Below are positions 33,319-61,971 of a stretch of 64,000 bases of DNA, piece by piece. Within the stretch, counting starts at the first letter, position 1. Each line of letters begins with the position of its first letter. Made by a program: the position numbers and the translations under genes. The notes under the pieces are model-generated. The model was not told where the DNA came from and ran no database searches. It saw nothing but the letters and a program-made list of their open reading frames with translations. The stretch covers positions 2,216,938 to 2,280,937 of the forward strand of contig NZ_KE386573.1 of assembly GCF_000427685.1 (NCBI RefSeq), read 5' to 3'. This DNA comes from Haloplanus natans DSM 17983. Its GTDB lineage: Archaea > Halobacteriota > Halobacteria > Halobacteriales > Haloferacaceae.

Positions 33319-35091
33319 ATGCCTGCGGACTTCAACTGGGCGGTCGGTGGGGAAGCCGGCGACGGCATCGATTCCACCGGAAAAATCTTCGCCCAGGCGC
33401 TTTCCAGGGCCGGTCGGCACGTGTTCACCTCCAAGGACTTCGCGTCGCGAATCCGCGGCGGCTACACGGCGTACAAAGTCCGCACGTCGGTAGACCAGGT
33501 ACAGAGCGTGGTCGATCGGCTGGACGTGCTCATCGCGCTTACCCAGCGGACCATCGACGAAAATCTCGATGAACTCCACGACGGGAGCGTCATCATCTAC
33601 GACGGGGATCGGACGACGATGCAGGACGTGGAGATCCCCGAGGGGATGATCGGCCTCGACGTACCGCTCAAGAGCCTCGCGGAGGACGCCGGCGGCGCCA
33701 TCATGCGCAACGTCGTCGCCCTCGGCGCCGCCTGCGCCGTCAGTGACTTTCCGATCGAGAACCTCGACAGCGCCCTCGAGAAACGCTTCGGTGACAAGGG
33801 TTCCGCCATCGTCGAGAACAACAAGACCGCGGCGCGGAAGGGACGGGACTACGTCCTCGAGGAGTACGACCAGGAGTTCGGCTACGATCTGGAGTGTACC
33901 GACGAGAACTACGTCCTCCTGAACGGCGACGAGGCCATCGGCATGGGCGCCATCGCCGGCGGCTGTCGGTTCTACGCCGGCTACCCCATCACGCCCGCGA
34001 CGGACGTGATGGAGTATCTCACCGGCAGAATCGAGCGCTACGGCGGCCACGTCGTGCAGGCGGAGGACGAACTCGCCGCCATCAACCTCGCACTCGGCGC
34101 CGCGCGCGCCGGCGCCCGCTCCATGACCGCCACCTCCGGCCCGGGAATCGACCTCATGGCCGAGACGTTCGGACTGGTCGCCACCAGCGAGACGCCGCTG
34201 GTCATCTGTAACGTGATGCGCTCCGGCCCCTCGACGGGGATGCCCACCAAGCAGGAACAGGGCGACCTGAACGCCATGCTCTACGGCGGACACGGCGAGG
34301 TGCCGCGGTTCGTCCTCGCGCCCACGACCATCGCGGAGTGTTTCCACAAGACCGTCGAGGCGTTCAACCTCGCGGAGAAATACCAGATTCCGGTCTACCT
34401 GACCGCCGACCTCTCGCTCGCGGTCACCGAACAGACCTACCCGCCGGAGGAGTTCGACATGGACGCGGTCGAAATCGACCGCGGGAAGGTCGTCGACGGG
34501 GAGACGGTGGGCGAGTGGCAGGACGAACAGGGGCGGTTCAAACCCCACGCACTCACCGAGGACGGCGTGAGTCCGCGGGCGTTCCCCGGCACCGAGGGCG
34601 GCGTCCACATGTCCACCGGCCTCGAACACGACGAACTCGGGCGCCGGACCGAGGACACCGATATGCGCGTCCGGCAGGTGGACAAGCGCACCCGCAAGGT
34701 CGAGACGGCGGAGGCGCGCGAACCGTTCGCGGCCCGCGAGTTCGGCGACCCCGAGGCGGCGACGCTCGTCGTCTCGTGGGGGTCGAACGAGGGCGCGATG
34801 CGGGAGGCGATCGACTTCCTCGACGACCGAGGGATCGACGTGCGATTCCTCTCGGTGCCCTACGTCTTCCCGCGGCCCGACCTGACCGACGCCGTGGAAG
34901 CCGCCGACGAGGTGATCCTCGTCGAGTGTAACGCGACGGGACAGTTCGCGGACCTGATCGAGCACGACACGCTGACGCGCGTGACGCGCGTGAACAAGTA
35001 CGACGGCGTCCGATTCAAGGCGGACGAACTCGCCGACCGGATCACCGAGGTGCTTGCTGACGACGACGAAAAAGAGGAGGCGACCCCATGA
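33319..35091 (+). CDS. korA: 2-oxoacid:ferredoxin oxidoreductase, fused gamma-alpha subunit
   Basis: A 590-residue subunit of a ferredoxin-linked 2-oxoacid (probably 2-oxoglutarate) oxidoreductase. Residues 1-185 are the gamma domain (WAVGGEAGDGIDSTGK...SRIRGGYTAYKVR), then the alpha domain from about 205 (GCRFYAGYPITPATDVME) and a C-terminal domain. The length near 590 and the partner of 287 residues match haloarchaeal KorAB rather than PorAB. ATG 35088 of korB overlaps its TGA by four bases. It is the intact copy: the tandem duplication begins 38 bases inside this gene. Confidence 0.95.
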   Translation: MPADFNWAVGGEAGDGIDSTGKIFAQALSRAGRHVFTSKDFASRIRGGYTAYKVRTSVDQVQSVVDRLDVLIALTQRTIDENLDELHDGSVIIYDGDRTTMQDVEIPEGMIGLDVPLKSLAEDAGGAIMRNVVALGAACAVSDFPIENLDSALEKRFGDKGSAIVENNKTAARKGRDYVLEEYDQEFGYDLECTDENYVLLNGDEAIGMGAIAGGCRFYAGYPITPATDVMEYLTGRIERYGGHVVQAEDELAAINLALGAARAGARSMTATSGPGIDLMAETFGLVATSETPLVICNVMRSGPSTGMPTKQEQGDLNAMLYGGHGEVPRFVLAPTTIAECFHKTVEAFNLAEKYQIPVYLTADLSLAVTEQTYPPEEFDMDAVEIDRGKVVDGETVGEWQDEQGRFKPHALTEDGVSPRAFPGTEGGVHMSTGLEHDELGRRTEDTDMRVRQVDKRTRKVETAEAREPFAAREFGDPEAATLVVSWGSNEGAMREAIDFLDDRGIDVRFLSVPYVFPRPDLTDAVEAADEVILVECNATGQFADLIEHDTLTRVTRVNKYDGVRFKADELADRITEVLADDDEKEEATP

Positions 35092-35951
35092 GCTCCGACG
35101 TTCGATTCACCGACTTCAAATCCGACGCACAGCCGACGTGGTGCCCGGGCTGTGGCGACTTCGGCACCATGAACGGAATGATGAAAGCCCTGGCCGAAAC
35201 CGGCAACAGCCCCGACGAGACGTTCATCGTCGCCGGCATCGGCTGTTCGGGCAAGATCGGGACGTACATGCGCTCCTACGCGCTCCACGGCGTCCACGGG
35301 CGCGCGCTCCCGGTCGGGGCGGGCGTCAAACTCGCCAACCCCGACATCGAGGTGATGGTCGCGGGCGGCGACGGCGACGGCTACTCCATCGGCGCCGGCC
35401 ACTTCGTCCACGCCGTCCGCCGCAACGTCGACATGACCTACGTCGTCATGGACAACCGAATCTACGGCCTGACGAAAGGGCAGGCCTCGCCGACCAGCCG
35501 CGAGGACTTCGAAACGTCGACGACGCCCGAGGGCCCCCAACAGCCCCCGGTCAACCCCCTCGCTCTCGCCTTCGCCGCGAGCGGTACCTTCATCGCGCAG
35601 TCGTTCTCGACGGACGCCCAGCGCCACGCCGAAATCGTCAAACAAGCGGTCGAACACGACGGCTTCGGCTTCGTCAACGTGTTCTCCCCCTGCGTGACGT
35701 TCAACGACGTGGACACCTACGACTACTTCCGTGACTCCATCGTCGACCTGGCCGACACCGACCACGACCCGACGAACTACGAGGACGCCCGCTCGCGCAT
35801 CCTCGACCCCGGCACGGAGTATCAGGGCGTCCTCTACCGGGACGACGACTCGGTGCCCTACGAGCAGAGCCACGGCGTCGACGCCAACATGGCCGACATC
35901 CCCGACGGCGCGCCCGAGGACGCGATGGATCTGGTCCGCGAGTTCTACTGA
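35088..35951 (+). CDS. korB: 2-oxoacid:ferredoxin oxidoreductase beta subunit, copy 1
   Basis: A 287-residue thiamine-diphosphate-binding subunit: CPGCGDFG near residue 19, the TPP motif GGDGDGYSIGAGHFVHA near 99, and DNRIYGLTKGQASPTS. With KorA it oxidatively decarboxylates a 2-oxoacid, reducing ferredoxin. The four-base ATGA overlap with intact korA makes this the natural partner. Residue 28 is Met here, Ile in copy 2. Its TGA is directly followed by inverted repeat C. Confidence 0.96.
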   Translation: MSSDVRFTDFKSDAQPTWCPGCGDFGTMNGMMKALAETGNSPDETFIVAGIGCSGKIGTYMRSYALHGVHGRALPVGAGVKLANPDIEVMVAGGDGDGYSIGAGHFVHAVRRNVDMTYVVMDNRIYGLTKGQASPTSREDFETSTTPEGPQQPPVNPLALAFAASGTFIAQSFSTDAQRHAEIVKQAVEHDGFGFVNVFSPCVTFNDVDTYDYFRDSIVDLADTDHDPTNYEDARSRILDPGTEYQGVLYRDDDSVPYEQSHGVDANMADIPDGAPEDAMDLVREFY

Positions 35952-36032
35952 TACTGTTTACTGTAAGTCATTACCGGTGGGTCGCCGGACCGTCTTGGCG
36001 ACTCACCGGTAACCAGTTACAGTAAACAGTAT
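35951..36032. repeat. 82-bp inverted repeat at a stop codon, copy C
   Basis: The arm ATACTGTTTACTGTAA is mirrored exactly at the other end. Relative to copy B two base pairs have changed in both arms together (G to C at position 4, T to C at position 11), so the pairing is kept. It starts on the last base of the korB TGA. Confidence 0.93.
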
Positions 36033-36040
36033 AAGACGGA

Positions 36041-36313
36041 CTACTGCAACTGTCTGCCGGACTGTCTCTGTGGATCGTCGGTACGGAGGTACGAGAAACC
36101 GTACGGGGGCCGACCCTTTTGGAGGACGACCGGCCAGAAGAACCGGACGAGAAGCGTTAGCGTCGCCGTCGCCAGCAGGATCACCACGGCGTCCAGCGGG
36201 AGGCCGGCCCGGAGCATATCCTCGCGGTCCATGTAGCCCGCACCGGACGCGGTGAGGTGGACGGGTATCGCGAGCGCGACGCCGAAGACGGCCACGTTGC
36301 GCACGCTCGTCAT
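36041..36313 (-). CDS. Small membrane ORF resembling a DASS permease C-terminus, copy 1
   Basis: A 90-residue frame from ATG 36313. Two helices flank YMDREDMLRAGLPLD, and the final helix ends VRFFWPVV. This pattern (GYxxxDxxRxGxPL, then FWP) resembles the last helices of SLC13/DASS anion permeases, so it may be the remnant of a larger transporter, or an independent small protein. It is convergent with korB across inverted repeat C. An in-frame ATG at 36370 exists. Confidence 0.55.
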   Translation of the reverse strand: MTSVRNVAVFGVALAIPVHLTASGAGYMDREDMLRAGLPLDAVVILLATATLTLLVRFFWPVVLQKGRPPYGFSYLRTDDPQRQSGRQLQ

Positions 36314-36428
36314 CGCGGCCTCCCGACCCCCCGGTGGACCATCGAATCGGTGCGCGTCGCCCACCAGCAAGAGTCTGTTCCCGTCGCCGTTCGGAAAGAC
36401 TGATTACGGTCACACGGTAGGGAAGAAT

Positions 36429-37673
36429 ATGCCCGACCGTTTCGACGTGATCGTCGCCGGCGCGGGGCCCGCCGGGGCCCAGTGTGCCCGCGACCTCGCT
36501 CAACGGGGGTACGACGTGGTCGTCCTCGAGGCCGAGGCCGAGGCCGACTTCCCCCGCCAGAGCAACAAATCCACCGCCGGCACGTTCCCATCTATGATGG
36601 CTTCGTTCGGGGTGCCGGACGAGGTGGTGATGAACTACACCGACGACGTGGTGCTGGAGTCGCCGAACGACCACTACGTCCAGCACCAGCCCGGTGCGGT
36701 CCTCGAGTTCGCCGAATTCAAACGCTGGCTGGTCCGTGAGGGTCGCGAGCAGGGGGCGACCTACCGCTTCGACGCCCGCGCCAACGCGCCGATCATGGCG
36801 GACGGAACCATCTCCGGCGTCCGCTACGCGGGCGACGAAGAGGTGTACGCCGACATCGTCGTCGACGCGACGGGGCCGGCGGCGCCGCTGGCGAAGGAAC
36901 TCGGCGTGAGCGACCTGCAACGCGACCACCAGGCAATCGGCGTCGAGTGGGAGATGGAGGGGGTAGAGATGGACCACCCCGAGTACGCCGACCTCACGAA
37001 CACGATGATGCTCCGACTGGACCACACGTACGCCCCCGGCGGCTACTCGTGGATCTTCCACACCGGCGGCGACACCGCGAAGGTCGGCCTCTGTTACATT
37101 CAAAACGAGAGCCACGAGCAGTACGGCCGGGACGGGGCGAGCATCGACGACTATCTGCACCAGTGGCTCGACGAGGACCCGCGCTTTGCCGACGCCGAGC
37201 GCATCACCGACAAACAGCAACACCGCGGCTCGGCCCACATCCAGATGCCCGGCAAACTGTGTACGGACGGGTTCATGGCCGTCGGCGACACGGTTCCCAC
37301 CATCGACCCCCTGTGGGGAGAGGGTATCCATAAGGGGATGAAATCGGGGCGGATGGCCGCCATCACGGCCGACCGCTGTTTCACCGAAGCGGACCCCGAC
37401 ACCTCCGCGGAGGCGATGTCGGTCTACAGCAAACTCTGGCACAGCGAGGTGGCGCCCCGGATGCGCGAGCGCCTGCTGATGACGGAACTGCTCTATCTCA
37501 CGCCCAACGAGCGCTACGATACGCTGATGGAGGACCTGCGCGGCGCCGACGGCGACACCCTAGCGAAGGTCAACGCGGGCAACGTCCGGGCGATGATGCG
37601 GCTCCTCCACGTCCGTGACGTGGGGCTTCTCGCGAAGTTCGCGAGGGAGCGCCTGGGCGAGCGGTCGTCGTAA
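36429..37673 (+). CDS. FAD-dependent oxidoreductase, geranylgeranyl reductase family, copy 1
   Basis: A 414-residue flavoprotein. The N-terminal dinucleotide motif VIVAGAGPAGAQCARDLA starts at residue 8, a second FAD contact is DGFMAVGDTVPTIDP near 280, and the family sequence SNKSTAGTFPSMMA replaces the usual PxxYxxWG-type loop. Members reduce isoprenoid double bonds of archaeal lipids or quinones; which one is not decidable here. ATG 36429 has AT-rich sequence about 28 bases upstream. The copy at 42512 reads identically. Confidence 0.87.
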   Translation: MPDRFDVIVAGAGPAGAQCARDLAQRGYDVVVLEAEAEADFPRQSNKSTAGTFPSMMASFGVPDEVVMNYTDDVVLESPNDHYVQHQPGAVLEFAEFKRWLVREGREQGATYRFDARANAPIMADGTISGVRYAGDEEVYADIVVDATGPAAPLAKELGVSDLQRDHQAIGVEWEMEGVEMDHPEYADLTNTMMLRLDHTYAPGGYSWIFHTGGDTAKVGLCYIQNESHEQYGRDGASIDDYLHQWLDEDPRFADAERITDKQQHRGSAHIQMPGKLCTDGFMAVGDTVPTIDPLWGEGIHKGMKSGRMAAITADRCFTEADPDTSAEAMSVYSKLWHSEVAPRMRERLLMTELLYLTPNERYDTLMEDLRGADGDTLAKVNAGNVRAMMRLLHVRDVGLLAKFARERLGERSS

Positions 37674-37723
37674 CGTCGTTCCGTTCCACAACGCCTTTCG
37701 CCGTCTCGGCCCTGTATCGGTAC

Positions 37724-38527
37724 GTGACATCCCCGATCAGCGAGATACCGACCCTCGGTATCGGCACGTGGCAAAACACCGACCCCGAAGAGTGTGCGAA
37801 CGCGGTGGCGACGGCCATCGAGATGGGCTATCGCCACGTCGACACCGCACAGGCCTACGACAACGAGACGGCGGTCGGCGAGGGCCTCGCGCGCGCCGCC
37901 GTCCCACGCGAGGACGTCTTCCTCGCGACGAAAGTCTGGATCGACCAACTCGGGGGCGACGACGTCGTCGCCTCCACCGAGGAGAGTCTGTCGAAACTCG
38001 GCGTCGACTACCTCGACCTGCTGTATATCCACTGGCCGGCAGGCGAATACGACGCCGAAGACACCCTCGCCGCCTTCGACGACCTGTACGACGAGGGGCT
38101 GATCGAGCGGATCGGCGTCAGCAACTTCGAACCCGGGCAGGTGACCGAGGCGGTCGAGACGGCCGACGCCCCCATCTTCGCCAACCAGATCGAGTGTCAC
38201 CCGCTCCTCCCGCAGGACGAACTCCGCGCACACTGTGCCGATCACGGCGTCGACGTGGTGGCGTACTCGCCGCTGGCCCGCGGCGAGGTGTTCGACATCC
38301 CCGAGATCAACGCCGTGGCCGACAAACACGGCGTCAGCGAGGCACAGGTGTCGCTCGCGTGGCTCCGCGAGAAGGGCGTCACGGCGATTCCGAAGGCGAC
38401 GAGCGAGACACACATCCGCGACAACTGGGCGTCGCGAACGCTGGAACTCGACGACGAGGACGTATCGACCATCGATAGCATCGGCCGGACGGAACGGCAG
38501 ATCGATCCGGACTTCGCGCCCTGGTAA
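37724..38527 (+). CDS. Aldo/keto reductase, copy 1
   Basis: A 267-residue TIM-barrel oxidoreductase with the catalytic tetrad visible: Asp and Tyr in HVDTAQAYDNE, Lys in LATKVW, His in YIHWPAGEYD. The NADPH site IPKATS lies near residue 225. Such enzymes reduce aldehydes or ketones such as methylglyoxal. The GTG start at 37724 follows the reductase by 50 bases. Its TAA abuts the stop of the opposed DUF373 gene. Repeated unchanged at 43807. Confidence 0.93.
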   Translation: MTSPISEIPTLGIGTWQNTDPEECANAVATAIEMGYRHVDTAQAYDNETAVGEGLARAAVPREDVFLATKVWIDQLGGDDVVASTEESLSKLGVDYLDLLYIHWPAGEYDAEDTLAAFDDLYDEGLIERIGVSNFEPGQVTEAVETADAPIFANQIECHPLLPQDELRAHCADHGVDVVAYSPLARGEVFDIPEINAVADKHGVSEAQVSLAWLREKGVTAIPKATSETHIRDNWASRTLELDDEDVSTIDSIGRTERQIDPDFAPW

Positions 38528-39452
38528 CTACGAGCGGTCGACCGACTCGGCGTCTGCCTCTTCCTCGCCCGGATGGTCGTGGGCGACTTTCGCCGTCACC
38601 CGAACCCCGACCAGCGAGACCACGATGGCCGTCACGACGAACAGCGCGAGGCGTTCCGTAGGCTGGACGGTGACCCCGAGCAGTTGGAGATGCTGGAGGA
38701 CGCCCTCGCGTTCGAGGAAGTAGCCGGCGAACCCGCGGACGACGAGGCCAAGCGCGACGACGCCGAAAGGGAGGTTCAGGTAGGGGCGGGGGATGCGGTC
38801 CGCGTCGATGAGTTCGTCGAGCAGGCGACCGGCGCTCGCGGTGAGCGCCGCCAGCGCCAGCCACGGGATGCTACTGTAGAAAAACTGCATGACTGGGACG
38901 AGGACGACACCGTCGGTCACGGGCGAAACGGCGAGGCCACCGAGAAAGAGCCCGACGAGTGCGAGGCCGCCCGCGACGGCGTAGGTGACGACCGACACCT
39001 GTCCGGAGTAGAGGGCGTCCCTGATCTGGTCGGGCAGGCGCGCCAGGTAGGCGTCGATCGCGAGTCCCTTGTACAGCACCGCGGCGCCGAGCAGCGAGGC
39101 GAGGCCGGCGAGCGCCATGCCGAGCGAGAACCGCACGAGTAAGACGGGAAGCAAGAGCAGTCCGACGCCGACGGGAACGAGAACGGTCGAGCGGAGTTCC
39201 TCGTCGGCGAGGAACTGCTTGAGGAGGTAGTACGTCGACTCGATGTCGCGGGCCTGTCGGACGACCACGCGGTCGACGGAGTCGACCGGTAGACGACTCT
39301 CGATGATCGGCACCAGCCGCTCGTCGTCGGCGCTGTCGGTGACGATGATCGCCGAGTCGGGGGCGTAGCGGTCGAGCAGGTCGTCGACCTGGGCCGCGAC
39401 CGAGCGGTCGGCGCCGACGGGGGAGTCGCCGGAGCCGGAGACGACGGCGACG
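38528..39452 (-). pseudogene. DUF373 membrane protein, N-terminus lost by the duplication (copy 1)
   Basis: Identical to residues 69-375 of the intact DUF373 protein at 44611-45738, but the first 68 residues and the promoter are replaced at the junction by antisense korA sequence. The frame stays open through the antisense part, giving a chimeric ORF with no matched start. Internal GTG codons could start a shorter product retaining the membrane region, so expression is not excluded. Confidence 0.88.
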
Positions 39453-41174
39453 GCATCGATTCCACCGGAAAAATCTTCGCCCAGGCGCTTTCCAGGGCCG
39501 GTCGGCACGTGTTCACCTCCAAGGACTTCGCGTCGCGAATCCGCGGCGGCTACACGGCGTACAAAGTCCGCACGTCGGTAGACCAGGTACAGAGCGTGGT
39601 CGATCGGCTGGACGTGCTCATCGCGCTTACCCAGCGGACCATCGACGAAAATCTCGATGAACTCCACGACGGGAGCGTCATCATCTACGACGGGGATCGG
39701 ACGACGATGCAGGACGTGGAGATCCCCGAGGGGATGATCGGCCTCGACGTACCGCTCAAGAGCCTCGCGGAGGACGCCGGCGGCGCCATCATGCGCAACG
39801 TCGTCGCCCTCGGCGCCGCCTGCGCCGTCAGTGACTTTCCGATCGAGAACCTCGACAGCGCCCTCGAGAAACGCTTCGGTGACAAGGGTTCCGCCATCGT
39901 CGAGAACAACAAGACCGCGGCGCGGAAGGGACGGGACTACGTCCTCGAGGAGTACGACCAGGAGTTCGGCTACGATCTGGAGTGTACCGACGAGAACTAC
40001 GTCCTCCTGAACGGCGACGAGGCCATCGGCATGGGCGCCATCGCCGGCGGCTGTCGGTTCTACGCCGGCTACCCCATCACGCCCGCGACGGACGTGATGG
40101 AGTATCTCACCGGCAGAATCGAGCGCTACGGCGGCCACGTCGTGCAGGCGGAGGACGAACTCGCCGCCATCAACCTCGCACTCGGCGCCGCGCGCGCCGG
40201 CGCCCGCTCCATGACCGCCACCTCCGGCCCGGGAATCGACCTCATGGCCGAGACGTTCGGACTGGTCGCCACCAGCGAGACGCCGCTGGTCATCTGTAAC
40301 GTGATGCGCTCCGGCCCCTCGACGGGGATGCCCACCAAGCAGGAACAGGGCGACCTGAACGCCATGCTCTACGGCGGACACGGCGAGGTGCCGCGGTTCG
40401 TCCTCGCGCCCACGACCATCGCGGAGTGTTTCCACAAGACCGTCGAGGCGTTCAACCTCGCGGAGAAATACCAGATTCCGGTCTACCTGACCGCCGACCT
40501 CTCGCTCGCGGTCACCGAACAGACCTACCCGCCGGAGGAGTTCGACATGGACGCGGTCGAAATCGACCGCGGGAAGGTCGTCGACGGGGAGACGGTGGGC
40601 GAACGACGAACAGGGGCGGTTCAAACCCCACGCACTCACCGAGGACGGCGTGAGTCCGCGGGCGTTCCCCGGCACCGAGGGCGGCGTCCACATGTCCACC
40701 GGCCTCGAACACGACGAACTCGGGCGCCGGACCGAGGACACCGATATGCGCGTCCGGCAGGTGGACAAGCGCACCCGCAAGGTCGAGACGGCGGAGGCGC
40801 GCGAACCGTTCGCGGCCCGCGAGTTCGGCGACCCCGAGGCGGCGACGCTCGTCGTCTCGTGGGGGTCGAACGAGGGCGCGATGCGGGAGGCGATCGACTT
40901 CCTCGACGACCGAGGGATCGACGTGCGATTCCTCTCGGTGCCCTACGTCTTCCCGCGGCCCGACCTGACCGACGCCGTGGAAGCCGCCGACGAGGTGATC
41001 CTCGTCGAGTGTAACGCGACGGGACAGTTCGCGGACCTGATCGAGCACGACACGCTGACGCGCGTGACGCGCGTGAACAAGTACGACGGCGTCCGATTCA
41101 AGGCGGACGAACTCGCCGACCGGATCACCGAGGTGCTTGCTGACGACGACGAAAAAGAGGAGGCGACCCCATGA
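39445..41174 (+). pseudogene. korA: korA copy 2, 5'-truncated and frameshifted
   Basis: This copy lacks the first 13 codons, start and promoter of korA, because it begins at the junction inside DUF373. It also differs from copy 1 at about 40600-40606, where eight bases are replaced by three (net minus five), so the frame shifts after GETVGE and leaves the alpha domain truncated. A second frame restores the C-terminal part from about 40650. The gene cannot make a full subunit. The rest of the sequence matches korA. Confidence 0.95.
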
Positions 41175-42034
41175 GCTCCGACGTTCGATTCACCGACTTC
41201 AAATCCGACGCACAGCCGACGTGGTGCCCGGGCTGTGGCGACTTCGGCACCATTAACGGAATGATGAAAGCCCTGGCCGAAACCGGCAACAGCCCCGACG
41301 AGACGTTCATCGTCGCCGGCATCGGCTGTTCGGGCAAGATCGGGACGTACATGCGCTCCTACGCGCTCCACGGCGTCCACGGGCGCGCGCTCCCGGTCGG
41401 GGCGGGCGTCAAACTCGCCAACCCCGACATCGAGGTGATGGTCGCGGGCGGCGACGGCGACGGCTACTCCATCGGCGCCGGCCACTTCGTCCACGCCGTC
41501 CGCCGCAACGTCGACATGACCTACGTCGTCATGGACAACCGAATCTACGGCCTGACGAAAGGGCAGGCCTCGCCGACCAGCCGCGAGGACTTCGAAACGT
41601 CGACGACGCCCGAGGGCCCCCAACAGCCCCCGGTCAACCCCCTCGCTCTCGCCTTCGCCGCGAGCGGTACCTTCATCGCGCAGTCGTTCTCGACGGACGC
41701 CCAGCGCCACGCCGAAATCGTCAAACAAGCGGTCGAACACGACGGCTTCGGCTTCGTCAACGTGTTCTCCCCCTGCGTGACGTTCAACGACGTGGATACC
41801 TACGACTACTTCCGTGACTCCATCGTCGACCTGGCCGACACCGACCACGACCCGACGAACTACGAGGACGCCCGCTCGCGCATCCTCGACCCCGGCACGG
41901 AGTATCAGGGCGTCCTCTACCGGGACGACGACTCGGTGCCCTACGAGCAGAGCCACGGCGTCGACGCCAACATGGCCGACATCCCCGACGGCGCGCCCGA
42001 GGACGCGATGGATCTGGTCCGCGAGTTCTACTGA
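41171..42034 (+). CDS. korB: 2-oxoacid:ferredoxin oxidoreductase beta subunit, copy 2
   Basis: Full-length 287-residue duplicate of KorB, all TPP motifs intact. Met28, next to the CPGCGDFG motif, is Ile here. Its upstream partner korA is broken, so translation coupling through the ATGA overlap depends on readthrough of the pseudogene region and its missing promoter. It could add a second source of KorB or be silent. Confidence 0.94.
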   Translation: MSSDVRFTDFKSDAQPTWCPGCGDFGTINGMMKALAETGNSPDETFIVAGIGCSGKIGTYMRSYALHGVHGRALPVGAGVKLANPDIEVMVAGGDGDGYSIGAGHFVHAVRRNVDMTYVVMDNRIYGLTKGQASPTSREDFETSTTPEGPQQPPVNPLALAFAASGTFIAQSFSTDAQRHAEIVKQAVEHDGFGFVNVFSPCVTFNDVDTYDYFRDSIVDLADTDHDPTNYEDARSRILDPGTEYQGVLYRDDDSVPYEQSHGVDANMADIPDGAPEDAMDLVREFY

Positions 42035-42115
42035 TACTGTTTACTGTAAGTCATTACCGGTGGGTCGCCGGACCGTCTTGGCGACTCACCGGTAACCAGT
42101 TACAGTAAACAGTAT
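42034..42115. repeat. 82-bp inverted repeat at a stop codon, copy D
   Basis: Duplicate of copy C, carried by the tandem duplication; sequence is unchanged. It starts on the last base of the korB copy 2 TGA. Confidence 0.93.
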
Positions 42116-42123
42116 AAGACGGA

Positions 42124-42396
42124 CTACTGCAACTGTCTGCCGGACTGTCTCTGTGGATCGTCGGTACGGAGGTACGAGAAACCGTACGGGGGCCGACCCT
42201 TTTGGAGGACGACCGGCCAGAAGAACCGGACGAGAAGCGTTAGCGTCGCCGTCGCCAGCAGGATCACCACGGCGTCCAGCGGGAGGCCGGCCCGGAGCAT
42301 ATCCTCGCGGTCCATGTAGCCCGCACCGGACGCGGTGAGGTGGACGGGTATCGCGAGCGCGACGCCGAAGACGGCCACGTTGCGCACGCTCGTCAT
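42124..42396 (-). CDS. Small membrane ORF resembling a DASS permease C-terminus, copy 2
   Basis: Unchanged duplicate of the 90-residue ORF at 36041-36313. See that entry for the similarity to the end of an anion permease. Its presence in two copies tells nothing about function, since it was carried passively. Confidence 0.55.
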   Translation of the reverse strand: MTSVRNVAVFGVALAIPVHLTASGAGYMDREDMLRAGLPLDAVVILLATATLTLLVRFFWPVVLQKGRPPYGFSYLRTDDPQRQSGRQLQ

Positions 42397-42511
42397 CGCG
42401 GCCTCCCGACCCCCCGGTGGACCATCGAATCGGTGCGCGTCGCCCACCAGCAAGAGTCTGTTCCCGTCGCCGTTCGGAAAGACTGATTACGGTCACACGG
42501 TAGGGAAGAAT

Positions 42512-43756
42512 ATGCCCGACCGTTTCGACGTGATCGTCGCCGGCGCGGGGCCCGCCGGGGCCCAGTGTGCCCGCGACCTCGCTCAACGGGGGTACGACGT
42601 GGTCGTCCTCGAGGCCGAGGCCGAGGCCGACTTCCCCCGCCAGAGCAACAAATCCACCGCCGGCACGTTCCCATCTATGATGGCTTCGTTCGGGGTGCCG
42701 GACGAGGTGGTGATGAACTACACCGACGACGTGGTGCTGGAGTCGCCGAACGACCACTACGTCCAGCACCAGCCCGGTGCGGTCCTCGAGTTCGCCGAAT
42801 TCAAACGCTGGCTGGTCCGTGAGGGTCGCGAGCAGGGGGCGACCTACCGCTTCGACGCCCGCGCCAACGCGCCGATCATGGCGGACGGAACCATCTCCGG
42901 CGTCCGCTACGCGGGCGACGAAGAGGTGTACGCCGACATCGTCGTCGACGCGACGGGGCCGGCGGCGCCGCTGGCGAAGGAACTCGGCGTGAGCGACCTG
43001 CAACGCGACCACCAGGCAATCGGCGTCGAGTGGGAGATGGAGGGGGTAGAGATGGACCACCCCGAGTACGCCGACCTCACGAACACGATGATGCTCCGAC
43101 TGGACCACACGTACGCCCCCGGCGGCTACTCGTGGATCTTCCACACCGGCGGCGACACCGCGAAGGTCGGCCTCTGTTACATTCAAAACGAGAGCCACGA
43201 GCAGTACGGCCGGGACGGGGCGAGCATCGACGACTATCTGCACCAGTGGCTCGACGAGGACCCGCGCTTTGCCGACGCCGAGCGCATCACCGACAAACAG
43301 CAACACCGCGGCTCGGCCCACATCCAGATGCCCGGCAAACTGTGTACGGACGGGTTCATGGCCGTCGGCGACACGGTTCCCACCATCGACCCCCTGTGGG
43401 GAGAGGGTATCCATAAGGGGATGAAATCGGGGCGGATGGCCGCCATCACGGCCGACCGCTGTTTCACCGAAGCGGACCCCGACACCTCCGCGGAGGCGAT
43501 GTCGGTCTACAGCAAACTCTGGCACAGCGAGGTGGCGCCCCGGATGCGCGAGCGCCTGCTGATGACGGAACTGCTCTATCTCACGCCCAACGAGCGCTAC
43601 GATACGCTGATGGAGGACCTGCGCGGCGCCGACGGCGACACCCTAGCGAAGGTCAACGCGGGCAACGTCCGGGCGATGATGCGGCTCCTCCACGTCCGTG
43701 ACGTGGGGCTTCTCGCGAAGTTCGCGAGGGAGCGCCTGGGCGAGCGGTCGTCGTAA
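42512..43756 (+). CDS. FAD-dependent oxidoreductase, geranylgeranyl reductase family, copy 2
   Basis: Full-length 414-residue duplicate of the gene at 36429-37673, with the same upstream 100 bases and so the same promoter. Both copies should be expressed. No difference between the translated copies was seen. Confidence 0.88.
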   Translation: MPDRFDVIVAGAGPAGAQCARDLAQRGYDVVVLEAEAEADFPRQSNKSTAGTFPSMMASFGVPDEVVMNYTDDVVLESPNDHYVQHQPGAVLEFAEFKRWLVREGREQGATYRFDARANAPIMADGTISGVRYAGDEEVYADIVVDATGPAAPLAKELGVSDLQRDHQAIGVEWEMEGVEMDHPEYADLTNTMMLRLDHTYAPGGYSWIFHTGGDTAKVGLCYIQNESHEQYGRDGASIDDYLHQWLDEDPRFADAERITDKQQHRGSAHIQMPGKLCTDGFMAVGDTVPTIDPLWGEGIHKGMKSGRMAAITADRCFTEADPDTSAEAMSVYSKLWHSEVAPRMRERLLMTELLYLTPNERYDTLMEDLRGADGDTLAKVNAGNVRAMMRLLHVRDVGLLAKFARERLGERSS

Positions 43757-43806
43757 CGTCGTTCCGTTCCACAACGCCTTTCGCCGTCTCGGCCCTGTAT
43801 CGGTAC

Positions 43807-44610
43807 GTGACATCCCCGATCAGCGAGATACCGACCCTCGGTATCGGCACGTGGCAAAACACCGACCCCGAAGAGTGTGCGAACGCGGTGGCGACGGCCA
43901 TCGAGATGGGCTATCGCCACGTCGACACCGCACAGGCCTACGACAACGAGACGGCGGTCGGCGAGGGCCTCGCGCGCGCCGCCGTCCCACGCGAGGACGT
44001 CTTCCTCGCGACGAAAGTCTGGATCGACCAACTCGGGGGCGACGACGTCGTCGCCTCCACCGAGGAGAGTCTGTCGAAACTCGGCGTCGACTACCTCGAC
44101 CTGCTGTATATCCACTGGCCGGCAGGCGAATACGACGCCGAAGACACCCTCGCCGCCTTCGACGACCTGTACGACGAGGGGCTGATCGAGCGGATCGGCG
44201 TCAGCAACTTCGAACCCGGGCAGGTGACCGAGGCGGTCGAGACGGCCGACGCCCCCATCTTCGCCAACCAGATCGAGTGTCACCCGCTCCTCCCGCAGGA
44301 CGAACTCCGCGCACACTGTGCCGATCACGGCGTCGACGTGGTGGCGTACTCGCCGCTGGCCCGCGGCGAGGTGTTCGACATCCCCGAGATCAACGCCGTG
44401 GCCGACAAACACGGCGTCAGCGAGGCACAGGTGTCGCTCGCGTGGCTCCGCGAGAAGGGCGTCACGGCGATTCCGAAGGCGACGAGCGAGACACACATCC
44501 GCGACAACTGGGCGTCGCGAACGCTGGAACTCGACGACGAGGACGTATCGACCATCGATAGCATCGGCCGGACGGAACGGCAGATCGATCCGGACTTCGC
44601 GCCCTGGTAA
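43807..44610 (+). CDS. Aldo/keto reductase, copy 2
   Basis: Full-length 267-residue duplicate of the gene at 37724-38527; catalytic tetrad intact. It ends directly against the stop of the intact DUF373 gene on the other strand. Confidence 0.93.
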   Translation: MTSPISEIPTLGIGTWQNTDPEECANAVATAIEMGYRHVDTAQAYDNETAVGEGLARAAVPREDVFLATKVWIDQLGGDDVVASTEESLSKLGVDYLDLLYIHWPAGEYDAEDTLAAFDDLYDEGLIERIGVSNFEPGQVTEAVETADAPIFANQIECHPLLPQDELRAHCADHGVDVVAYSPLARGEVFDIPEINAVADKHGVSEAQVSLAWLREKGVTAIPKATSETHIRDNWASRTLELDDEDVSTIDSIGRTERQIDPDFAPW

Positions 44611-45738
44611 CTACGAGCGGTCGACCGACTCGGCGTCTGCCTCTTCCTCGCCCGGATGGTCGTGGGCGACTTTCGCCGTCACCCGAACCCCGACCAGCGA
44701 GACCACGATGGCCGTCACGACGAACAGCGCGAGGCGTTCCGTAGGCTGGACGGTGACCCCGAGCAGTTGGAGATGCTGGAGGACGCCCTCGCGTTCGAGG
44801 AAGTAGCCGGCGAACCCGCGGACGACGAGGCCAAGCGCGACGACGCCGAAAGGGAGGTTCAGGTAGGGGCGGGGGATGCGGTCCGCGTCGATGAGTTCGT
44901 CGAGCAGGCGACCGGCGCTCGCGGTGAGCGCCGCCAGCGCCAGCCACGGGATGCTACTGTAGAAAAACTGCATGACTGGGACGAGGACGACACCGTCGGT
45001 CACGGGCGAAACGGCGAGGCCACCGAGAAAGAGCCCGACGAGTGCGAGGCCGCCCGCGACGGCGTAGGTGACGACCGACACCTGTCCGGAGTAGAGGGCG
45101 TCCCTGATCTGGTCGGGCAGGCGCGCCAGGTAGGCGTCGATCGCGAGTCCCTTGTACAGCACCGCGGCGCCGAGCAGCGAGGCGAGGCCGGCGAGCGCCA
45201 TGCCGAGCGAGAACCGCACGAGTAAGACGGGAAGCAAGAGCAGTCCGACGCCGACGGGAACGAGAACGGTCGAGCGGAGTTCCTCGTCGGCGAGGAACTG
45301 CTTGAGGAGGTAGTACGTCGACTCGATGTCGCGGGCCTGTCGGACGACCACGCGGTCGACGGAGTCGACCGGTAGACGACTCTCGATGATCGGCACCAGC
45401 CGCTCGTCGTCGGCGCTGTCGGTGACGATGATCGCCGAGTCGGGGGCGTAGCGGTCGAGCAGGTCGTCGACCTGGGCCGCGACCGAGCGGTCGGCGCCGA
45501 CGGGGGAGTCGCCGGAGCCGGAGACGACGGCGACGATGGCGTCCTCGCCGTCGCCCCGGAGGTCACGGGTGACACGGAGGGCTTCGAGCAAGCAGTTGAC
45601 CGTCGAGTCCTCCGGATCGGCCAGCCCCACCTCGGTTACCAGCGATCGCACGGCGTCCCACCCGTCGACCGGCATCGACACGCCGACGGTCCGGCCGACG
45701 TCGTCGGCCCGGTCGACACACAGCACCAACGTGGTCAC
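44611..45738 (-). CDS. DUF373 family membrane protein, intact copy
   Basis: A 375-residue protein of archaeal DUF373. The N-terminal 145 residues form a soluble domain (MTTLVLCVDRADDVG start; SAIIVTDSADDERLVPIIESR in parts), followed by seven to nine helices and an acidic C-terminus. Function unknown. The ATG has a TATA-like ATATTTATTCC about 27 bases upstream, within a palindrome at 45758-45773. This is the only copy with its N-terminus and promoter. Confidence 0.9.
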   Translation of the reverse strand: MTTLVLCVDRADDVGRTVGVSMPVDGWDAVRSLVTEVGLADPEDSTVNCLLEALRVTRDLRGDGEDAIVAVVSGSGDSPVGADRSVAAQVDDLLDRYAPDSAIIVTDSADDERLVPIIESRLPVDSVDRVVVRQARDIESTYYLLKQFLADEELRSTVLVPVGVGLLLLPVLLVRFSLGMALAGLASLLGAAVLYKGLAIDAYLARLPDQIRDALYSGQVSVVTYAVAGGLALVGLFLGGLAVSPVTDGVVLVPVMQFFYSSIPWLALAALTASAGRLLDELIDADRIPRPYLNLPFGVVALGLVVRGFAGYFLEREGVLQHLQLLGVTVQPTERLALFVVTAIVVSLVGVRVTAKVAHDHPGEEEADAESVDRS

Positions 45739-56967: not shown

Positions 56968-57477
56968 ATGAACAAAGAAGGACACGTGATCAACGCGGCG
57001 CTGTTGAGCGTGGGGCTCGGCATCGTGCTGGTGTGGCCGACGGCGTTCACGGCGTCCACCGCGCTCGAAACCGTCGAAATGGTAGCCAGGCTCTCGGTCC
57101 CGGTCGTCCTCGGGGCGCTCTTTCCCGACGTGGACACCGCGTTCGGCAAACACCGCAAGACCCTGCACAACGTGTTCGTGCTCGGTGTCGTCGCCGCCTA
57201 CCCCGTCTTCTTCGGCAACCTCCAGTTCGTCTGGATCGGCGTCGCGACACACTACCTCCTCGACGTGGTGGGGAGTCGGCGCGGAATCGCCTTCTTCTAC
57301 CCGCTCACCAGCCAGGAGTGGGGGCTCCCGACCGGCGTCACGACCAGCAGCAAGTACGCCAACCCGGTGACGGTAGTGGTGACCGTCCTCGAACTCGTCG
57401 TCCTCGGCGTCGTCAACGTCTACGTGATGCCGCTCGGCGACGTGTCCGGGGCGATGAGCGCCATGCTACTCGGATAG
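56968..57477 (+). CDS. Membrane-bound metal-dependent hydrolase, YdjM-like
   Basis: A 169-residue membrane protein starting MNKEGHVINAALLS. Motifs: the His in GHVIN, FPDVDTAFGKHRKTLHN near residue 50 and THYLLDVVGSRRG. It is the short form of the same broad family as the gene at 13745. Helices are at about 5-27, 33-52, 70-92 and 130-160. The next ORF starts one base after the stop. Confidence 0.85.
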   Translation: MNKEGHVINAALLSVGLGIVLVWPTAFTASTALETVEMVARLSVPVVLGALFPDVDTAFGKHRKTLHNVFVLGVVAAYPVFFGNLQFVWIGVATHYLLDVVGSRRGIAFFYPLTSQEWGLPTGVTTSSKYANPVTVVVTVLELVVLGVVNVYVMPLGDVSGAMSAMLLG

Positions 57478-57478
57478 C

Positions 57479-57625
57479 GTGTCCGACCGACCGCCGATCG
57501 AGTGGGACGACGACGGCCCCGTTGCCCTCCGTCACGTCGCCGCCGGGGCCGCCGTCGGCGTCGGGTTCCTGTTCGGTGCGGGCGTCCTGCTCCTCGTCCG
57601 GCGCTCGCTCCGCGAGGGGGCGTAG
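57479..57625 (+). CDS. 48-aa single-helix protein, or 5' part of a broken membrane gene
   Basis: GTG 57479 follows the hydrolase stop by one base. The product has an acidic start (SDRPPIEWDDDGPVALRHV) and one helix, ending RRSLREGA before TAG 57623. The next ORF continues in the same frame directly after this stop, so the two may be one gene split by a nonsense codon. Taken alone, this piece has normal length for a small haloarchaeal membrane protein. Confidence 0.6.
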   Translation: MSDRPPIEWDDDGPVALRHVAAGAAVGVGFLFGAGVLLLVRRSLREGA

Positions 57626-58291
57626 GACCGTCTGGTCGCGATCCTCCTCGTCCTCGCGGTACTCCCACTGACCGGGCGGGCGCTTCTCGGCATCCGCGCG
57701 ACTGAGACGCCGACCGCCGACTCGCTCCGGCGCCGACCCCTGCTTCTCGCCGGCGGCGCCTGGGCGCTCGTCCTCGCGGCCACCTTCCAGTGGCGGCCCC
57801 TGGCCGTCGTTGCCCTCCTCGTGGGTGCGGTCGGGCTGTGGCTCGTCGCGGCCGCCTGCCGGACGCAGGGGCGACTCGACCCCGCGGCGGGGACGCTCAC
57901 GTACGGCTCGCGGACGGCGTCGCTCGACGGTCTCGGCGGTACGTGGCGGCTCCCGCTCGGACCGGTGTCGGTGTACTGGCTCGACTTCGCTCGCGGAAGC
58001 GTCGCCAGCGGAGTACCCCGGATTATCGTGGTACCACGCCGTGTCGATAGCGACGTGTCGGCGGTGCTCGGCCGGGCAGCCACGACCGAGGGCGAGACGG
58101 ACACATTGGGAGCGGCCAGCGACGCCGAACGCGCCGTGGCGGCGACGCTCGGCCTCGGCTTTCTCCTCGCCGGTCCGGTCGCGTGGCTCGTTCTGCCGGC
58201 GAGTGCCGACGCGACGCTCGTGACCGGGTATCTGGCGCTTCTCGGCCTGCCATTCGCCGTCGTACTCTTGCGGTACGCGCTGGTCGCTTAG
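57626..58291 (+). pseudogene. Membrane protein lacking a start codon after an in-frame TAG
   Basis: The frame runs from GAC CGT CTG GTC directly after TAG 57623-57625 to TAG 58289-58291, 221 codons. It has helices at about codons 4-22, 40-57 and 60-76, a beta-rich soluble centre and two C-terminal helices. There is no ATG or GTG until 57821, which would drop the first three helices. The upstream part is clearly protein-like, so the start codon was lost, or the upstream gene was once fused. It shares TTAG with the convergent PHP gene. Confidence 0.65.
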
Positions 58292-59052
58292 TACGTCGTC
58301 ACGTCGTCGAACCGGCCCCGGTAGGCCACGTTGCTCGGGTGAGTCGGCTCGGTGCCCGAGAGGAAGAGGCGGTCGAGTTTCCCCCACGAGTTCTCGTAGC
58401 CGAGGTGGGCGAACTCGACGAGCCCCTGGGTGTGGTGGCCGAGGCCGCTCCGGCGGACCACTCGCCGCGAGGCGCCGGACCGGAGCGCGTCGACGAGGTC
58501 GGTCACGGAGTCGACGGGGTCGTCGAAAACCGTCCACGCCTCGCCGACCGTCCGCCGGAGGTGCGCGTAGGACGACCCGAATCCCGGGAGTCCGGTCGCG
58601 CGGGCGACCGCTCGGCCGCGCCGGTTCTGATGGGGGAGACATTTGGCGTTGTACGTCTCGACGGCGTCGACGTGGTCGGCGTTCGCGGCCACGTCCTCGC
58701 GGTCGCAACTCACGTTTAGCATCTCGGGATGCGGGACGAGGACGGCCGCGTCCTGCCGGTCGAACTCGTCGAGCGCCCCACGGAAGGTGATGAAGTCGGG
58801 AACGGGATCGGTGAGGCCAACGGCGAGGAGGTGTCGGCGGTCGTACCAGGGGCCGGTGAACACCTCGCGTGCGGGCACGACGAGGAGGTCGTCGTCCGAA
58901 AAGCGAGCGGCGCGGGTTCGGATGTCCGGCAGGCGAGTGAAGTGGGGCGCGTACACGAGCACGTCGATACCGCGGGCCTTCGCCCGCGAGACGACCCGTT
59001 CGTCGAGAGCCTTGACGTGCATATCCACGCGGGTCGGTCCGGCCGTCGTCAC
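58288..59052 (-). CDS. PHP domain metallo-hydrolase
   Basis: A 254-residue PHP protein. RVDMHVKA near residue 8 replaces the usual DxHxH first motif, VYAPHFTRLPD follows, and HPEMLN and later NAKCLPHQNRRGRA contain the other metal-binding positions. The first motif has only one His, so metal binding may be reduced. Such proteins are polymerase-linked or free phosphoesterases. Start GTG 59052 keeps the first motif inside the protein. Confidence 0.85.
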   Translation of the reverse strand: MTTAGPTRVDMHVKALDERVVSRAKARGIDVLVYAPHFTRLPDIRTRAARFSDDDLLVVPAREVFTGPWYDRRHLLAVGLTDPVPDFITFRGALDEFDRQDAAVLVPHPEMLNVSCDREDVAANADHVDAVETYNAKCLPHQNRRGRAVARATGLPGFGSSYAHLRRTVGEAWTVFDDPVDSVTDLVDALRSGASRRVVRRSGLGHHTQGLVEFAHLGYENSWGKLDRLFLSGTEPTHPSNVAYRGRFDDVTTY

Positions 59053-59825: not shown

Positions 59826-61349
59826 TCACTCCTCGAACCGCAGTTCCGCCGACAGCCCCTGGGCCATCTCGATGTCGCGCCCGTTGTTCAGCGTCCACGC
59901 CGTCCGCTCCGTGACCGCCTCGATCACCTCGCGGGCCGACGGCGAGCCTTTCCCGGACTTGCCGACGCCACCGAACGGGAGTTGGACCTCGGCGCCGATA
60001 CAGGGCAAGTTGGCATAGGCCAGCCCCACGTCCGCCTCGTCGCGGTAGTAGTTGAGCTGTCGGTAGTCCTCGCTGACGATGGCCCCCGCCAGCCCGTAGT
60101 CGACGGCGTCGTTGATTTCGACCGCCCGCTCGACGGACCCGCGATAGGGAACCAGGGCGACGTGCGGCCCGAACACCTCCTCCCGGAGGACGCGACTTTC
60201 GGGGTCGAAGGCCATCTCGTAGACGAAGGGGCCGACCCAGTGGCCGGCCTCGTGGCCCGCGGGAATCTCGTCGGGGGCGAGTTCCGCGCGGTCGACGAGC
60301 ACCGTCGCGCCCGCCTCGCGGGCGCGGTCGTTGTACTCGCGGAACTTCGCGACCGCGTCGGCGTCGATCAGCGGCCCCATGAACGTCGTCTCGTCGAGGG
60401 GGCCACCCACCGCGATTCGCTCCGCGGCGTCGACGAAGCGGGCACGGAAGTCGTCGTAAACGTCCTCGTGGACGATCAGGCGCTCGGCGGAGACACAGCG
60501 CTGCCCGGTCGTCTTGAACGCCGAGAGGACGGCCGACGGCACCGCGATGTCGAGATCGGCCGCCTCGGTCACGACGAGGGCGTTCTTGCCCCCCATCTCC
60601 AGCGAACAGTCGCGGCCGGGGCGCCCGCCCAGCCGCTCGTCGATGGCGTGGCCCACCGCGGCCGAGCCGGTGAACAGAACCGTGTCCACCCGGTCGTCGT
60701 CGACGATGGCCGCGCCCACCTCGCCGGGTCCCTGCACCAGATTGAACACGCCGGGCGGGACGCTCGCGTCGTCGAACATCTCGGCGACGATCCGGCCACA
60801 GTACGGCGTCTGCTCCGCGGGCTTCCAGACGACGGTGTTGCCCTCGACCAGCGTCACCGCCATATGCCAGAAGGGGATGGCGACAGGGAAGTTCCAGGGC
60901 GTGATACAGCCGACGACACCGCGGGGGCGGCGCCGCATATACGCGTCCTTGCTCGCGATTTCGCTCGGCACCACGTCGCCGTGGGGGTGGCGGGCGTTGC
61001 CCGCCGCCCACTCCACCATGTGCGCCGCCTCCTCGATGTCGGCCAACCCCTCGCTGATCTCCTTGCCACATTCGCGGCTGACGATTTCGCCGAGTTCGGC
61101 CTTGCGCTCGCGAAGTTCGGCGTACACGTCCCACAGCACGTCGGCGCGGTCGACGTAGGACCGCCGGCGCCACTCGTCGGCCGCGTCGCTCGCCGCGCCG
61201 ACCGCCCGCGCCACGTCGGCCGGCGACGCCCTCGTGAACGTCGCGACGGTCCCGCCGGTGGCCGGGTTCGTGCTCTCGAACGGCTCCCCCTCATCCTCGA
61301 CCCACTCGCCGTCGACGTACCCTTCGAACGGTTCGGTGCTGTGTGTCAT
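59826..61349 (-). CDS. Aldehyde dehydrogenase, probably L-glutamate gamma-semialdehyde dehydrogenase
   Basis: A 507-residue NAD(P)-dependent aldehyde dehydrogenase. The catalytic Cys is in FKTTGQRCVSAERL near residue 290, the general-base Glu in LEMGGKN near 255, and the cofactor Asn in TPWNFPVAIP. The ECGKEISEG and EIASKDAYMRRRPRG segments match the haloarchaeal P5C-type dehydrogenase that follows proline dehydrogenase in proline breakdown. A proline dehydrogenase remnant sits immediately upstream. ATG 61349 is the only good start. Confidence 0.93.
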   Translation of the reverse strand: MTHSTEPFEGYVDGEWVEDEGEPFESTNPATGGTVATFTRASPADVARAVGAASDAADEWRRRSYVDRADVLWDVYAELRERKAELGEIVSRECGKEISEGLADIEEAAHMVEWAAGNARHPHGDVVPSEIASKDAYMRRRPRGVVGCITPWNFPVAIPFWHMAVTLVEGNTVVWKPAEQTPYCGRIVAEMFDDASVPPGVFNLVQGPGEVGAAIVDDDRVDTVLFTGSAAVGHAIDERLGGRPGRDCSLEMGGKNALVVTEAADLDIAVPSAVLSAFKTTGQRCVSAERLIVHEDVYDDFRARFVDAAERIAVGGPLDETTFMGPLIDADAVAKFREYNDRAREAGATVLVDRAELAPDEIPAGHEAGHWVGPFVYEMAFDPESRVLREEVFGPHVALVPYRGSVERAVEINDAVDYGLAGAIVSEDYRQLNYYRDEADVGLAYANLPCIGAEVQLPFGGVGKSGKGSPSAREVIEAVTERTAWTLNNGRDIEMAQGLSAELRFEE

Positions 61350-61453: not shown

Positions 61454-61971
61454 CTACCGGCCGGCGGCACTGTCGACGATGGCCCGCAGCGCGAACCCGA
61501 GGTTCTCGCGGCGTTCCCTGACCCGGCGGTAGAAGTACGACGCCCACGCGGAGCCGTACGGGACGTACTGGTAGACCGTCTCGGTCGCCGCGAGTTCGCG
61601 CTGGCGGTCCTCGCGGACGCCCATCAGCATCTGGAACTCGTAGTCGCGGTCGTACCGAGCGCCCAAGTCGAGCGCGCGGTCGATCATCGCGTCGTCGTGG
61701 GTGGCGACGGCGATACCGACGGTCGTCTCGGCGAACAGTCGGCGAAGCAGGTCGCGGTAGGCGTCGCCGCCGGCGGCACGGTCGCGGGGAGTCGTTCGAG
61801 GAGACGGAGATACTCCTCGGCGTCCGCGCGGGCGTCCGCGGGGTCGTCGTGATGTTCGCCGAGGTGGTTGACGATGGCGGCGATCCCCGCGTCGTCGAGG
61901 CTGCGGACGTGGGCAACGGCACCGTCGATGGATTCGCCGGCGACGAATCGGTCCGCTATCGGCGGGAGCAT
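61454..61971 (-). pseudogene. Proline dehydrogenase with a central deletion and frameshift
   Basis: Reading from ATG 61971, the first 70 or so codons (MLPPIADRFVAGESIDGAVAHV... to LLERLPATVPPA) are the N-terminus of a haloarchaeal proline dehydrogenase. The frame then changes, and from about 61758 another frame gives its C-terminus (AYRDLLRRLF, VATHDDAMIDR, YEFQMLMGVR, YVPYGSAWASYF). An intact protein has about 290 codons; only about 170 remain, so the barrel core with flavin and substrate residues (about 120 codons) is deleted. The fusion point lies at about 61760. The enzyme must be inactive. Confidence 0.82.

Follow-up and report, generated by a model that had tools for sequence, protein, structure and literature searches.

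A premature TAG codon in a membrane gene of Haloplanus natans, probably marking a young nonsense pseudogene

The interrupted frame and its orthologues

Does the TAG codon that divides a protein-like frame in Haloplanus natans DSM 17983 separate two genes, or does it cut a single one? The frame lies in a 64,000-nucleotide stretch of contig NZ_KE386573.1, called here the window, and extends from 57479 to 58291 on the forward strand. It begins at GTG 57479, one nucleotide past the TAG (57475-57477) that ends the upstream gene, and includes 48 codons (57479-57622), the TAG at 57623-57625, 221 open codons (57626-58288) and a terminal TAG (58289-58291). The upstream gene (56968-57477, forward strand) encodes a YdjM-like membrane protein (PF04307, E 2.3e-8; score 34.2 bits, cut-off 29). 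The convergent downstream neighbour (58288-59052, reverse strand), which carries a PHP-associated domain identified by Pfam (PF13263), has been used as a marker of the site in relatives. No in-frame ATG is found after TAG 57623. ATG, GTG and TTG are all absent from the first 65 codons, in agreement with the earlier note, which had remarked on the missing ATG and GTG, and ATG and GTG are absent from all three forward frames between 57616 and 57700. The first of these three codons past the stop is GTG 57821-57823, corresponding to residue 115; the first TTG is at 58106, and a CTG is found at 57632. Long overlapping open frames are numerous in this GC-rich window, so the length of the part following the stop proves nothing, and the orthologues have to be considered.

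Both halves are collinear with one orthologous protein, at 73% identity in genome G002 and 65% in G009, two members of the same genus, and the similarity is far beyond chance. When the second part alone was used as query, matches were found in 14 of 60 relatives' genomes, the close ones, besides the window, being again those of G002 (76%) and G009 (67%). In both orthologues the gene is a single open frame, of 271 and 281 codons respectively, and the window gene is matched nearly end to end with one TAG inside. The two proteins, 268 and 274 residues long, start at GTG and ATG, one nucleotide past the YdjM-like stop as in the window, and the neighbouring genes are the same. What differs is the place of the TAG, occupied by a tyrosine codon in two of two close orthologues (LRAGAYDRL and FRAGAYDRL versus LREGA*DRL), which have no internal stop. 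Alignment A2 contains eleven further, more distant homologues, and each is likewise a single frame across this position. The two segments that the earlier note had read in one frame on the sides of the TAG correspond to parts of one orthologous protein. Of the three explanations it had put forward, the cutting of a fused gene is the right one, since the orthologues consist of a single frame and carry a sense codon where the window gene has its TAG. The replacement of a start codon at GAC 57626 is not supported, as neither close orthologue starts near there, and a non-standard start is not needed to explain the protein-like codons past the stop. Nor do orthologues start at the position of GTG 57821, the outcome that would have refuted the earlier note: according to the alignment they read across it, and their starts fall at the position of GTG 57479.

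Three stretches, residues 14-75, 87-131 and 219-270, stand out as hydrophobic in the hydropathy profile, which has a break near 44-46. A single-sequence AlphaFold2 model, informative on topology only (mean pLDDT 50.5), places helices at residues 12-46, 49-70, 80-102 and 107-127, followed by six strands (132-186), a helix at 187-201, and helices at 210-238 and 245-269. The predicted plan is that of a membrane protein with four helices, a strand-rich domain and two further helices. The 48 codons before the stop would encode an N-terminal IEWDDD stretch and the first hydrophobic helix, and the 221 codons after it the predicted helices 2-4, the strand-rich stretch with its helix, and helices 5-6. 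The TAG, at residue 49, is located where predicted helix 1 gives way to helix 2, and hence the residual product would be a stub with one helix. The strand-rich middle of the protein may resemble a PH-like domain set between membrane helices; in the same low-confidence model (mean pLDDT 50.5) the candidate, residues 132-201, has six strands and a helix, versus the seven strands of the PH fold. No Pfam match to either half of the window gene was found at E up to 1, and searches of Pfam and NCBIfam with the 14 members of A2 returned scattered hits, all with E values above 0.02. A profile search of the PDB retrieved two entries at E 0.005, the best match covering profile positions 37-160, and these have not been used for naming.

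The gene family and the site across the genus

At least 93 family matches have been counted in at least 78 of 170 genomes of the taxonomic family; both figures are lower bounds, as up to 14 candidates were scored per genome. Among the matches scored, 71 cover at least 200 of the 280 model positions, and only one of these, the window copy, contains an internal stop. Internal stops were also noticed in two short fragments (genomes G129 and G100). Homologues featuring a CWLSY stretch, such as that of G010, can be aligned to the window gene from one end to the other, at about 30% identity; the G010 copy has no internal stop and, unlike the window gene, is located elsewhere in its genome. Loci in Haloplanus ruber R35, Halorarius halobius ZY10 (on a plasmid) and Halopenitus persicus DC30 have been found with alignment A3, through which alone they are linked to the window gene. 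A scan of genome contigs with alignment A1 found no relative, and no report of the membrane gene appears in the titles and opening lines of the papers retrieved. A homologue from another taxonomic family (genome G055, locus L013, 1159-2000) carries an internal TAG elsewhere in the protein, before the strand-rich domain; its upstream part looks frame-shifted, and we read it as a copy that decayed separately.

The site is well defined in the genus, since the YdjM-like gene has a match in 12 of 12 genomes, always with the convergent PHP gene beyond it. The membrane gene is found between the two in three genomes, i.e. that of the window (G000), where it carries the stop, G002 and G009. In a fourth genome, G005, the same site hosts a scar of about 120 bp (locus L114, 1377-1496, reverse strand), made of three collinear pieces that match the 804-bp G002 gene at nucleotides 5-33 (blastn E 4e-7), 429-497 (E 6e-18) and 783-804 (E 0.003). 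The first two pieces share GACGGC at their junction, which suggests that the scar resulted from a deletion between short repeats. In the other eight genomes no copy was detected at the site (E 0.01). In the tree drawn from the two flanking proteins (423 columns) support is 52-86 at the nodes that matter, too weak to choose between one gain and repeated loss. Whether gained once or lost repeatedly, the membrane gene appears, from its patchy presence, to be dispensable.

Age of the lesion and competing explanations

No further lesion is found in the 221 codons past the TAG. In this part, dN/dS is 0.33 between window and G002, 0.36 between window and G009, and 0.34 in the intact pair G002-G009; before the stop the corresponding values are 0.41, 0.41 and 0.44. 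When G009 serves as outgroup, the nonsynonymous and synonymous changes number 38 and 30 on the window branch, and 35 and 37 on the G002 branch (Fisher p 0.40). No relaxation of constraint past the TAG is thus measurable relative to the intact orthologues, and the stop may accordingly be recent, tolerated, or a base-call error. Undiminished constraint speaks against an old pseudogene; a young lesion is allowed, rather than supported, by these data, which are equally compatible with a very recent lesion, a base-call error or leaky expression, and do not decide among them.

On the whole of the evidence, the locus is probably a young nonsense pseudogene, in which codon 49, out of about 270 in this haloarchaeal membrane gene, has become TAG. 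The main rival, less likely, is an error of base calling or assembly, the gene being intact in the organism. In its favour, a single codon is the sole interruption of an otherwise intact and constrained gene. Elsewhere in the window, moreover, two near-identical 6.09-kb copies are told apart by 3 mismatches and a 5-bp gap, differences that could themselves be errors. Yet the assembly consists of 8 contigs and is 99.8% complete and 1.61% contaminated, and the loss of the same gene in G005 makes a real lesion plausible. Other internal nonsense codons were moreover sought by comparing 51 frames of the window with each of two relatives; only non-overlapping frames were kept, since shadow frames of GC-rich DNA swamp an unfiltered census. 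Flags were raised in 7 of 51 frames versus G002 and 7 of 51 versus G009, and the resulting 11 distinct places were examined by codon-position GC. By our reading 57623 would be the only one to fall within a conserved coding frame; the remainder would lie ahead of the true start or belong to shadow frames. The census is not exhaustive, as a deletion in the gene for proline dehydrogenase, found by eye, had escaped it.

Read-through or suppression of the stop, yielding a full-length protein, would account for constraint past the TAG as strong as in intact orthologues, but appears very improbable. Demonstrated cases of read-through in archaea, according to a review (PMC8211752), are those of selenocysteine and pyrrolysine. 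The window gene shares with genes subject to pyrrolysine or other TAG recoding an in-frame TAG that has conserved coding sequence beyond it, and differs from them as to decoding machinery, the use of TAG as terminator and the conservation of its place. No decoding machinery was found: PylB has no match in the genome, and the match to PylS, probably another class II synthetase, scores 21 bits, far below the cut-off of 178 bits. A CUA anticodon is present in none of the 53 tRNAs matched by Infernal in the genome, a search that could miss a tRNA with a large intron (no tRNA-Trp is among the matches). Anticodons were assigned by ARAGORN to 48 of the 53 directly and to four more with introns (Arg TCT, Lys TTT, Met CAT, Gln TTG), and the last one, on contig C1, has a UGU anticodon, as read from the Rfam alignment. 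Besides, TAG is an ordinary terminator here: among the 41 window frames whose C-terminus aligns to G002, a few of them perhaps shadow frames, it closes 14, the membrane gene included, and it ends the YdjM-like gene upstream as well. Finally, a TAG at this place is kept neither by the two close orthologues nor by the other 12 aligned homologues. The narrower proposal of a programmed or leaky UAG read-through, which would make a full-length membrane protein without detectable pyrrolysine machinery, has slighter chances still.

Equally slight are the chances that the sequence past the stop forms a gene of its own, on which ribosomes reinitiate at GTG 57821 or at a non-standard codon such as CTG 57632. 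The latter is only 6 nt past the TAG, within the range in which Haloferax volcanii retains some reinitiation according to PMC10666635, where efficiency is still 40-60% at 13-14 nt. Yet neither close orthologue starts there, each being one protein. GTG 57821 sits 195 nt beyond the stop, and within this distance there is no in-frame ATG, GTG or TTG, whereas in a translationally coupled pair the start codon would overlap the stop or lie a few nt from it. A restart at this GTG is unlikely, because in H. volcanii a spacing of 22 nt suppressed reinitiation altogether in one tested pair, and 23 nt left almost none in two more (PMC10666635). A start at residue 115 would also remove predicted helices 1-3 and part of helix 4.

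Other damaged frames and significance of the lesion

Two other frames of the window are visibly broken, a point in favour of the pseudogene reading. One is the proline dehydrogenase gene (61454-61971, reverse strand), the only Pro_dh match in the genome, which lacks about 330 bp internally in comparison with G002, and features at the junction (approximately 61764-61787) a 24-nt imperfect repeat and a change of frame. Its neighbour (59832-61349), a dehydrogenase gene that is presumably P5C dehydrogenase-like, is uninterrupted. The other broken frame belongs to a tandem duplication of about 6.09 kb, the copies of which (33357-39452 and 39445-45535) are 99.87% identical; the 5-bp gap (34515-34519 versus 40603) interrupts, in the second copy, a frame of 590 codons. 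The duplication could be real or an artefact of assembly. Elsewhere in the same genome, 12 tRNA genes, 11 found by ARAGORN and one by Rfam, are crowded in 1.5 kb (locus L046, 628-2111; contig C1, 429 kb). Archaeal tRNA gene clusters are the topic of PMC6333295, in which Haloplanus is mentioned.

If the locus is a young pseudogene, as we favour, translation from GTG 57479 would end at TAG 57623 and release a 48-residue stub with one helix, and the remainder would not be produced. The loss would be tolerated because the gene is seemingly a dispensable element between the YdjM-like and PHP genes, reduced already to a scar in the sister genome G005. The uninterrupted orthologues, the stop, the conservation past it and the scar are shown directly, whereas we infer that the organism really carries this base, makes no protein of full length and loses nothing important by the lesion. 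Mechanical gene calling at the locus would yield a 48-residue peptide and a 156-residue protein starting at GTG 57821, both misleading. Beyond annotation the lesion is an ordinary find of low significance; together with its relatives, it illustrates stages in the loss of an uncharacterised haloarchaeal membrane gene within one genus, the gene being whole in two genomes, interrupted by one stop in a third, and a scar in a fourth.
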